DNA of 64,000 nt from Limosilactobacillus panis (GTDB lineage Bacteria; Bacillota; Bacilli; Lactobacillales; Lactobacillaceae). Position 1 is the first letter of the stretch. Each line of letters starts with the position of its first letter. Where the stretch lies: contig NZ_CP081855.1 in assembly GCF_019797825.1 (NCBI RefSeq), positions 496,001 to 560,000 on the forward strand, written 5' to 3'. Below are positions 19,398-21,392 of this stretch, piece after piece. The notes under the pieces were generated by a model that was not told where the DNA came from, did not search any database, and worked only from the letters and a program-made list of their open reading frames with translations. The position numbers and the translations under genes were made by a program.

Positions 19398-20324
19398 TTA
19401 GTAGTTGAACAGGTCGGTGGACAGGTAACGATCGCCGCCGTCTGGGGAGACGGTGATGACCTTCTTGCCCTTGCCCAGCTTCTTGGCTAATTCGATAGCA
19501 CCTTTAATATTGGCACCAGCGGAAATCCCAACCAGGATTCCTTCCTTGTGGGCCACTTCACGTGCCGTGGCGATGGCATCGTCGCTGCTTACCTCAACAA
19601 TTCCGTCATAAACGTCCTTGTCGAGCACCTTTGGGATGAAGCCAGCACTGATTCCTTGGATCTTGTGCTTGCCACCGTGGCCTTCCTTAAGAAGTGGTGA
19701 TTCGGCTGGTTCCAGAGCGTAAACCTTGGTAGCAGGGTTAGCCTTCTTGAGGGCGTGGCCGATTCCGGTCAGGGTACCACCAGTACCAACCCCGGCAACA
19801 AAGGCGTCCGGCAGGTTATCCTTACCAAAGGCATCGATGATCTCAGCGCCAGTAGTTGCTTCATGAATAGCCGGGTTAGCAGGGTTCTCGAACTGCATTG
19901 GCATGAAGTAGCCCTTCTCCTTGACGAGTTCTTCGGCCTTGGCGATGGAGCCCTTCATTCCGTCAGCACCAGGGGTGAGGATCAGTTCAGCACCGTAGCC
20001 CTGCATCAGCTTACGACGTTCCACACTCATGGTTTCCGGCATGGTGATTACCAGGTGGTAACCCTTAGCGGCAGCGACCATTGCCAGACCAACTCCAGTG
20101 TTACCAGAGGTTGGTTCCACGATGGTACCGCCGGCAGTCAGCTTGCCCTCTTTTTCTGCCCGTTCGATCATTGCCAGGGCGATCCGGTCCTTGATGGAGC
20201 CAGCGGGGTTGAAGAATTCCAACTTAACGTAGACATCAGCAGCGTCTTCAGGAACGACGCGGTTTAACTTAACGATGGGGGTATTACCGATCAGGTCGGT
20301 GATTGAGTTAACGATCTTAGTCAT
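19398..20324 (-). CDS. cysK: Cysteine synthase (O-acetylserine sulfhydrylase)
   Basis: A PLP enzyme that makes cysteine from O-acetylserine and sulfide. The PLP lysine is in [10 protein letters not shown] (about residue 45), the substrate loop is [11 protein letters not shown] and the phosphate loop GTGGTLTG. The length of 308 aa is normal. It is the second gene of an operon: its Shine-Dalgarno (AAAGGAG) overlaps the end of the MetA-like gene, with a 6-bp gap. It is governed by the cysteine leader attenuator at 21193-21335. No own terminator is seen, because the IS1182-type element begins 16 bp downstream and its hairpin probably ends the transcript. Confidence 0.96.
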
Positions 20325-20330
20325 AATTAA

Positions 20331-21158
20331 TTACTCCTTTACTAATTTCTTGTTTTGCATGCTGTGGACAACGGTTTGAAGCCAGTTATCAAAATAGATG
20401 TGCTGGGCCGGTTGCCACTTGAACTGTGGTCCCTTCATATGAATGGGGTCGAGGAAGTAGTTTTGCGGCTTGGCGTACTCCCGGTCCGGGTAGGCGTTCT
20501 TCTCACGCCGGTACTCCTTCAGCAGGGCTTCCCGCTCGTATTCCAGGTGGGCGAACAGGAAGGACTGCTGGTACTTAGGCGCCCGGAAGGAGAAGAGGTC
20601 ATCATCGATGGTGGTGGCCTCGAGGATCAGGTCGGGATGGACACTGATCTGCTGGTGATCTAGCTCCGCGTAACGCGCGTGGGGTGCCAGGAAGCCATCC
20701 GGCAGCCCCGTCAGCAGCGGCCCCTGGTTGACAATGTGGTTAGGGAAGATCCCAAACAGTTTCTCCGGTAACCGGTGCTTCTCGATCCCGTATAAGTAGT
20801 TGGCGGCGGCCATTGCTCCCCAGCAGATGTAGAGCTGCGGGATATTGAATTTTACCAGCTGGTCGATCAACTGGTGGATCTCGTCAATGTAGGTAACCTC
20901 GTTAAAGTCGAGTTGTTCGATTGGTGCCCCGGTAATGATGAAGGCATCAAACTCGTTGACCCGGGCAAGGTCCAGGGGTTGAGCAATCTGTTGAACCAAG
21001 TCAGGAACCGTCCGGTCACGGTAATGGGTTTGCGGGTACAGGAAGGTCAACTCCACTGGGTAGGCAGTGTGGGCAAAGACGTTCGTGAACCTTTTCTGGG
21101 TATCAACCTTATCGTGCATCAGGTTGAGAATCCCAATCTTAATCTGGGGAGTGGCCAT
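20331..21158 (-). CDS. MetA-like homoserine/serine O-acyltransferase
   Basis: A 275-aa protein of the homoserine O-acyltransferase (MetA) family, glutamine-amidotransferase-like fold. Aligned to MetA, the nucleophile is Cys112 (YICWGAMAA) and the His/Glu pair is His204 and Glu206 (FAHLEYERE, where MetA has HPEYD). GAPIEQLDFNEVTY and KLFGIF are also shared. It lacks about 30 N-terminal residues of typical MetA (about 300 aa). Its operon partner is cysK and the leader peptide ends in three Cys codons, so I infer that it supplies O-acetylserine for cysteine synthesis, that is, acts as a serine acetyltransferase. Homoserine acetylation remains the alternative. Confidence 0.85.
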   Translation of the reverse strand: MATPQIKIGILNLMHDKVDTQKRFTNVFAHTAYPVELTFLYPQTHYRDRTVPDLVQQIAQPLDLARVNEFDAFIITGAPIEQLDFNEVTYIDEIHQLIDQLVKFNIPQLYICWGAMAAANYLYGIEKHRLPEKLFGIFPNHIVNQGPLLTGLPDGFLAPHARYAELDHQQISVHPDLILEATTIDDDLFSFRAPKYQQSFLFAHLEYEREALLKEYRREKNAYPDREYAKPQNYFLDPIHMKGPQFKWQPAQHIYFDNWLQTVVHSMQNKKLVKE

Positions 21159-21192
21159 TATTTATCACCTCAATTCGTTGTTATTTGGGCAC

Positions 21193-21274
21193 TAAAAAAC
21201 TGTTGTTAATCAAAAAGTGAATAAGCCAAAGAACCCCAGTTGGGCTGGGGCGGGCACAGGATGATTAACAACAG
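21193..21274 (-). terminator. Attenuator terminator of the cysteine operon
   Basis: On the minus strand CTGTTGTTAATCA (21262-21274) pairs perfectly over 13 bp with TGATTAACAACAG (21200-21212), followed at once by TTTTTTA (21193-21199). A small hairpin CCCCAG/CTGGGG (21234-21250) lies in the loop. The 5' arm contains the last two Cys codons and stop of the leader peptide, so a ribosome paused there would prevent the terminator from forming. It ends 34 bp before the MetA-like gene. Confidence 0.85.
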
Positions 21275-21318
21275 CAGCTAGTGGACCACGGATGAATTGA
21301 ATTTGTAATTTTTAACAT
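21265..21318 (-). CDS. Cysteine leader peptide
   Basis: A 17-codon ORF, MLKITNSIHPWSTSCCC, with three consecutive Cys codons (TGC TGT TGT) directly before TAA. ATG at 21318 is preceded by AAGGAGTGG at a good distance (about 9 bp), and a strong promoter lies about 45 bp further upstream. It resembles the his and trp leader peptides in design: scarcity of Cys-tRNA would stall the ribosome on the Cys codons, mask the terminator 5' arm and let transcription enter the operon. I know of no named version in lactobacilli. The function is inferred from the arrangement. Confidence 0.85.
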   Translation of the reverse strand: MLKITNSIHPWSTSCCC

Positions 21319-21363
21319 TGGGACCACTCCTTTTTTACTTGATACTTATTTATTGTTAGCAAT

Positions 21364-21392
21364 ATTCTAACCTGGTTAGCATGGGAAGTCAA
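21364..21392 (-). promoter_or_regulatory. Promoter of the cysteine operon
   Basis: On the minus strand TTGACT (21387-21392) and TAGAAT (21364-21369) have an exact 17-bp spacer. The IS4-type element ends 17 bp upstream of the -35 box, close enough to have removed any upstream activator site. Confidence 0.8.

Follow-up and report, generated by a model that had tools for sequence, protein, structure and literature searches.

The his, trp and leu leaders of enterobacteria place tandem regulatory codons in a short ORF before a biosynthetic operon, and starvation for the amino acid leads to read-through. In these classical attenuators, mutually exclusive antiterminator and terminator structures lie downstream of the codons. 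The sequence-only reading of the locus described here had placed the leader-peptide design in enterobacteria, where it is indeed known, but it is not confined there. The leucine-rich leader of the S. aureus ilv-leu operon has genetic support for ribosome-mediated attenuation (PMC5794164), and a His leader has been predicted in bacilli (PMC2965389). Cysteine is also represented among described or proposed systems. Poly-Cys short ORFs precede the cys operons of Mycobacterium and P. acnes and the cbs gene of B. longum (PMC1262725), and the uORFC-8-2 motif found before cysS in Rhodobacterales has been proposed to act by Cys-tRNA attenuation (PMC8632094).

A lactobacillus operon reported to respond to cysteine is cysK2-ctl1-cysE2 of L. 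paracasei FAM18149, which showed higher expression without cysteine and high read coverage over its 5'UTR (Wuthrich et al. 2018, PMC6004538). The available text of that paper predicts a terminator over the motif AAGGGCGCGAAA-N16-TTTCGCGCCCTT in this 5'UTR, reports no T-box there, does not mention a leader peptide in its account of the operon, and terms the mechanism 'yet to be discovered'. The same source reports a Cys T-box in L. paracasei, and describes a metA-like cysE-cysK operon in this species with no recognisable 5'UTR signals, which showed a small difference by RNA-seq and none by RT-qPCR and was taken as constitutive. The metA-annotated gene is stated there, citing Bogicevic 2016, to encode a serine acetyltransferase (PMC6004538).

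We analysed a 64,000-nucleotide stretch of the Limosilactobacillus panis genome (contig NZ_CP081855.1, positions 496,001 to 560,000; hereafter the window), in which a cysteine leader had been proposed ahead of a MetA-like/cysK operon. Family matches bore out the identity of both genes. The operon's first gene, a metA-like gene of the HTS family (20331..21158, minus strand), matches Pfam PF04204 at E 1.5e-62, and cysK (19398..20324, minus strand) scores 446.5 bits against the cysteine synthase A model NCBIfam TIGR01139 (cut-off 350.95). The metA-like protein scores far under the NCBIfam cut-offs for both MetA_succinyl and MetA_acetyl. By analogy with the L. paracasei metA-annotated gene (PMC6004538), and from the operon layout and the family, its product is probably a serine acetyltransferase. 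An IS4-family element (21411 to about 22966, plus strand) ends about 18 bp 5' of the leader -35 hexamer with the promoter intact, and is absent from the relative UBA639 (L002/L081), compared by eye, which has the same leader. Downstream of the operon there are transposases of the IS1182 and IS30 families, and upstream of it another of the IS1182 family.

The leader element lies on the minus strand at 21392-21194, ahead of the metA-like gene and cysK. The promoter, Shine-Dalgarno (SD) and 17-codon ORF ending in Cys-Cys-Cys-stop named by the sequence-only reading can each be read directly on this strand. A sigma-70-type promoter, TTGACT-17-TAGAAT (21364..21392, minus; 10/12 matches in a consensus scan), has its -35 hexamer TTGACT at 21392-21387 and its -10 hexamer TAGAAT at 21369-21364, separated by a spacer of 17 bp. 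A perfect palindrome, CTAACCAGGTTAG, at 21378-21366 (minus) overlaps the spacer and the -10. The SD AAGGAG (21327..21332, minus) precedes the leader ORF MLKITNSIHPWSTSCCC-stop (21265..21318, minus), with its ATG at 21318-21316 and its TAA at 21267-21265. Its last three sense codons, TGC TGT TGT (21268..21276, minus), are the proposed sensing codons.

The ORF end is also one side of a stem. The 5' arm CTGTTGTTAATCA (21262..21274, minus), which is supported by covariation in relatives, consists of the third base of the first Cys codon, both other Cys codons, the stop and 3 nt more. It pairs perfectly over 13 bp with the 3' arm TGATTAACAACAG (21200..21212, minus), and an intrinsic terminator tail, TTTTTT, follows immediately 3' of the stem (21194..21199, minus). 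The perfect 13-bp stem with Cys codons and stop in its 5' arm is therefore as the sequence-only reading gave it, but the run it called T7-like has six T. The stem encloses a 49-nt loop that contains a second, GC-rich hairpin, GCCCCAG-CCCAA-CTGGGGT (core CCCCAG/CTGGGG; 21233..21251, minus). The leader region 21150-21356 has a predicted fold of -56 kcal/mol, against -40.3 +/- 3.9 kcal/mol for shuffled sequences (z -4.0), and beats 200/200 shuffles.

Mycobacterial poly-Cys ORFs are reportedly leaderless. The window leader, in contrast, has an SD and a -10 about 45 nt before its ATG, and a mycobacterial-type leaderless poly-Cys attenuator was rejected here on the SD, the stem and the T6 tract. It also differs from the enterobacterial his, trp and leu leaders, since its regulatory codons and stop themselves form the 5' arm of the terminator. 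Like the S. aureus ilv-leu system it belongs to a Firmicute and combines a leader rich in the operon's amino acid with a terminator; however, that system concerns Leu, a separate antiterminator has been proposed for it, and the available text does not describe its codons as a terminator arm (PMC5794164). The actinobacterial poly-Cys ORFs share with the window a short leader, ahead of cysteine genes, whose Cys codons form a run close to its stop, but the available account for Mycobacterium reports no conserved terminator hairpin and suggests Rho (PMC1262725), whereas the window has an intrinsic terminator-like stem and T6. The uORFC-8-2 motif resembles the window element in having two tandem Cys codons in a stem and a U run at the 3' end, and differs in its alphaproteobacterial hosts, its aminoacyl-tRNA synthetase gene and its two prominent stems (PMC8632094). 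The L. paracasei FAM18149 cysK2-ctl1-cysE2 operon, as described in PMC6004538, is alike in being a lactobacillus cysteine operon with a 5'UTR terminator and induction without cysteine.

We propose that the window leader very probably senses cysteine and controls the serine acetyltransferase-like/cysK operon by ribosome-mediated transcription attenuation. With ample Cys-tRNA(Cys), the ribosome would pass the Cys codons and release at the stop, leaving the 5' arm free; if the arm stays free during synthesis of the 49-nt loop and the 3' arm by RNA polymerase, the stem would form and transcription would terminate at the T tract. A shortage of Cys-tRNA(Cys) would instead keep the ribosome at the Cys codons with its footprint over the 5' arm, no stem would form, and polymerase would continue into the metA-like gene and cysK. 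The ribosome, by masking the arm, would take over the role of the separate antiterminator in trp and his leaders. Stalling, masking and termination, and with them the cysteine response of the operon, are predictions from the sequence. The geometry of ribosome position relative to the stem is given by the Cys codons lying inside the 5' arm. In the UBA639 locus (L081), the full stem-loop has a predicted energy of -31.4 kcal/mol, and -16.4 kcal/mol when the arm is omitted by construction, mimicking a masking ribosome. The chief doubt about the mechanism comes from the 49-nt loop, which is unusually long for a terminator. The hairpin within it would shorten the loop and, more speculatively, is a possible pause hairpin that may slow polymerase so that the ribosome keeps pace.

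To establish how far this arrangement recurs, the metA-like protein was searched in 50 Limosilactobacillus genomes, which gave 30 loci of the window's class including the window (E 4e-76 or better), and the upstream regions of all 29 other loci were read. The compact layout, with Cys-Cys-stop or Cys-Cys-Cys-stop at the stem arm, was present in 20 of these 29, among them loci of L. pontis, L. kribbianus, L. caccae, L. oris, L. rudii, L. agrestis, L. balticus and L. reuteri; the UBA639 leader is the same as the window's by eye. Since the 20 compact leaders were selected by their Cys-Cys-stop end, that end is true of them by definition. Independent of the selection are the frequency of 20/29 loci, the stem, and the distribution on the MetA tree, where the compact leaders fall within one group and account for 20 of its 21 rows, the support for this group being weak (82/77). 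TTGAC is also found 5' of the leader in the 20 relatives, and SD-like sites precede the leader ORF in relatives too. At this operon the sequences show a promoter, a leader that looks translatable and ends in Cys-Cys-(Cys)-stop, and a stem with its T tract, both conserved, in which the Cys codons and stop build the 5' arm. Alignment of relatives for the leader ORF, its Cys codons and compensatory stem changes was the check that the sequence-only reading had suggested, with lack of leader and stem conservation as its refutation; the layout is kept in 20/29 loci, and compensatory changes accompany it.

The terminator features were kept to different degrees. The T tract comprises at least 5 consecutive T in 16 of the 20 relatives and 4 in two, and is lost in two; in the reuteri group it is merely 4-5. 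When the match of the 3' arm was compared with 200 shuffles per locus, none was as good in 15/20 loci and 6-9 were as good in 3/20. In L081, whose leader is identical to the window's by eye, 0/200 shuffles of the downstream region gave an equal arm partner. For L090 and L093, 178 and 160 of the 200 shuffles matched the arm equally well; in both the stem is imperfect and the T tract is gone. These two loci, of the L. oris group, retain the leader end PTVSCCC despite the lost T tract and degenerate stem, a state that may reflect either decay or a change to another control mode. A Cys-run leader with a different layout was found in four of the 29 loci (L102-L104, grouping with L. mucosae, and L109). 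No recognisable Cys leader was found in five of the 30 (L096 and L105-L108); in L096, cysK is ahead of the metA-like gene. A covariance model of the compact leader was trained on 18 relatives and searched in the 50 genus genomes. Its 19 strong matches (E 6e-9 or better) were the 18 training loci and the window, every one of them at this operon; the remaining matches were weaker (E 1e-4 and up), and no second strong copy at the 6e-9 threshold was found in these genomes.

Covariation was analysed in an alignment of 18 leaders, from which L090 and L093 were excluded for their imperfect stem and lost T tract. Across the 13 stem pairs, 97.7% of cells were paired. Double-sided changes were found in 20 cells against 8.6 +/- 2.1 in shuffles, and the covariation score was 0.292 against 0.169; for each, 0/500 shuffles were as high. 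Two of the five covariation measures were not above shuffles, namely pairs with a double change (3; 388/500 as high) and further pair types (11; 234/500 as high). Shifting the partner by 1-3 columns lowered pairing to 19-67%. RNAalifold, unprompted, returned the same helix, the one conserved helix in its fold of the 18 sequences. The wobble base of the last Cys codon and its partner in the far arm are C-G in nine sequences, U-A in seven, U-G in one and C-A (unpaired) in one, and the base after the stop is U-A with its partner in eight, A-U in six, G-C in three and unpaired in one (n=18 for both). The L083 stem has one C-A mismatch. On the MetA tree, the wobble pair is C-G in G031 and a nine-row clade with L. 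reuteri, its nearest neighbours G005 and G038 being U-A, and G045, within a U-A clade, shows the unpaired C-A state; stem changes are scattered across the tree. A synonymous Cys-codon change matched 60-odd nt away in non-coding RNA suggests selection on the stem, and is hard to explain otherwise. The fold of the loop is less uniform: in the 18 long-loop relatives its z ranges from -5.3 to +0.3 against shuffles, strong in some and at chance level in others.

The peptide itself varied. The third residue from the leader end is Cys in 10, Ser in nine and Tyr in one of the 20 leaders, and residues further N-terminal change freely. Arrest peptides normally require specific upstream residues. A TnaC-like arrest, in which the nascent leader together with free cysteine or another metabolite would stall the ribosome irrespective of tRNA charging, finds some favour in the constant end WSTSCCC of L081-L085. 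However, the free variation ahead of the Cys codons over the 20 leaders does not show the upstream residues that such peptides would normally need; it fits sensing of Cys codons, not of peptide sequence, and we consider peptide-specific arrest quite unlikely.

Could the stem, or a pairing of the leader's ribosome-binding site (RBS) with the start region of the metA-like gene, instead hide an RBS and control translation? In L081-L084 the leader RBS GGAGTGGTCC pairs with the start region GGCCACTCC such that only 1-3 of 200 shuffles are as good, and in L086 and L098 none of 200 is; L090 and L093, moreover, keep the leader though the T tract is lost. This pairing is not general, however, as 163/200 shuffles are as good in L089 and 122/200 in L101. 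The metA-like SD lies about 22 nt beyond the T tract, outside the stem, and a T tract of at least 4 follows the stem in 18 of the 20 relatives, which argues against control at the level of translation. Translational control is quite unlikely to explain the locus, and the long-range RBS/start pairing, suggestive in some loci, was rejected as a general feature.

Cysteine control in Firmicutes is often by a T-box or CymR, so such a switch, or another of its kind, might control the operon without reading the ORF, which would then be incidental. L. paracasei has a Cys T-box (PMC6004538), and of the 19 loci scored, 11 have a weak palindrome, AAC(C)N0-1(G)GTT, between the -35 and -10 hexamers of the promoter. 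No Rfam family matched the window site at its gathering score or even at E 5, which led us to reject a T-box, or any other RNA in Rfam, at this position. At E 0.001 or better, the T-box model (RF00230) has 27 matches in the same genome; none is at the site, and 10 score above the family cut-off. At or above cut-off, no Rfam match was found in 20 leaderless metA-like loci or in 20 cysK2-class loci, and 20 metA-like loci with leaders gave one T-box only, beyond the metA-like gene in L137. The promoter palindrome was rejected as a regulatory site, being per locus mostly no better than chance, and in the stems scored the Cys codons lie within the covarying arm. A switch that ignores the ORF is, we judge, very unlikely. 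The absence of a T-box at the site, together with the leader, terminal Cys codons and stem that recur in 20/29 loci and the compensatory stem changes, supports the attenuator interpretation with which the sequence-only reading began.

A T-box does stand before a second metA homologue in the same genome (G000:C1:210559-211317, minus; 34% identical), directly upstream and in place of a Cys leader. This T-box (L236; 211450-211695, minus) matches at E 9.8e-20, slightly under the Rfam cut-off. This genome's two metA homologues are therefore preceded by leaders of different kinds.

Beyond the genus, we compared 80 regions upstream of metA-like genes (29 from the genus and 51 from outside it, the latter taken from 72 matches, counted by hand, with E below about 1e-49) and 63 cysK2-class genes, at 53% identity or more, from 345 Lactobacillales genomes. 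Under a strict criterion (an SD-preceded short ORF with at least 3 consecutive Cys within 400 nt upstream), Cys-run leaders were found at 26/80 metA-like and 49/63 cysK2-class genes. Applied to 20 shuffled sets of each, the criterion gave none for Cys, and runs of any other residue were found in at most 2 real loci. These counts bear on the simplest alternative, a chance ORF ahead of a constitutive terminator or processing stem. Short ORFs are common and a 17-codon leader holds little sequence information, but runs of three Cys at so many loci of both gene classes, with none in the shuffled sets of either, make coincidence extremely improbable.

A looser count, of at least 2 consecutive Cys and made without shuffle control, gave a leader at 38/80 metA-like and 62/66 cysK2-class loci, the latter being the 63 plus L169, L170 and L235. 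An ordinary short-loop terminator follows the leader at 17 of these 38 metA-like loci, four of the 17 within compact leaders, and at 59 of the 62 cysK2-class loci. Even under the looser count, 42/80 metA-like operons have no Cys leader; with the five leaderless loci among the 30 of the genus, this indicates that control by a Cys leader is not essential.

Individual leaders differ in form. One example is MSSKSIFNANQETCCCGLCLGQSTIWRGLS in L. equicursoris (L024/L144). In E. faecalis (L170, 2771-2908), the leader-like ORF MTKKQASPFLETESCCCMVQ... is annotated as the hypothetical protein WP_002355203.1; it has a Cys run and a terminator behind it, lies ahead of a cysteine synthase and cystathionine gamma-synthase pair, and looks like a leader peptide. 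L143, L145 and L150, from other genera, have a CCC-stop leader and an imperfect long-range stem whose 5' arm begins within the stop codon; the loops measure 78-92 nt, and T6-7 follows. The scan behind this had no shuffle control, and in L150 a rival stem scored equally. The three loci offer only a hint of a second origin of the compact design. In these three loci and L156, further small Cys-containing ORFs follow the CCC-stop leader by eye, such as an Ala-Cys-Cys-stop ORF in L156; these series are perhaps tandem attenuators. On a contig labelled Faecalicatena absiana (L023), a CCC leader accompanies a metA-like locus that resembles those of lactobacilli; the contig may be from a mislabelled or mixed genome. 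The sequence-only reading had raised the question of a lactobacillary version of leader-peptide control: the compact leader is indeed present in Limosilactobacillus, but Cys-run leaders are not limited to lactobacilli, as they are found in other Lactobacillales families.

In L. paracasei, plasmids of strains other than FAM18149 have the leader MSQSMFNAINCCCRTTRFWRCSAC or MTQSMFNAINCCCRTTRFWRCSAC ahead of the 5'UTR terminator. Plasmid pACT of strain LcA has the exact FAM18149 terminator motif with MSQSMFNAINCCCRTTRFWRCSAC before it, and pL11434-1 has a near copy of the motif. These leaders differ from that of the window in that their Cys codons lie mid-leader and an ordinary terminator follows about 65 nt past the leader stop. 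A Cys leader, known here from the plasmids of other strains and not from FAM18149 itself, may explain the cysteine response of cysK2-ctl1-cysE2, and the published RNA-seq agrees with such control.

Literature searches on cysteine attenuators and leader peptides, both overall and for lactobacilli, enterococci and Lactobacillales, found no description of these leaders; as the queries were narrow and reached few subscription papers, this is weak evidence that none exists. On balance, we favour the view that order-wide, unrecognised Cys-codon leaders sensing Cys-tRNA charging largely govern cysteine supply in the Lactobacillales, that leaders and their folds have been re-invented or rapidly rebuilt repeatedly, and that the Limosilactobacillus form is pared down to codons within the terminator, without an antiterminator. 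This would name a likely sensor of cysteine synthesis for a large group of food, probiotic and gut bacteria, in one of which, L. paracasei, the mechanism at a cysteine operon had been reported as undiscovered. In the compact leader the sensing codons double as a terminator arm, which would make it a minimal attenuator and a part that is simple to test. Leader-peptide attenuation has often been seen as enterobacterial, with T-boxes serving the Firmicutes; these results suggest that, for cysteine, it is common in the Lactobacillales.
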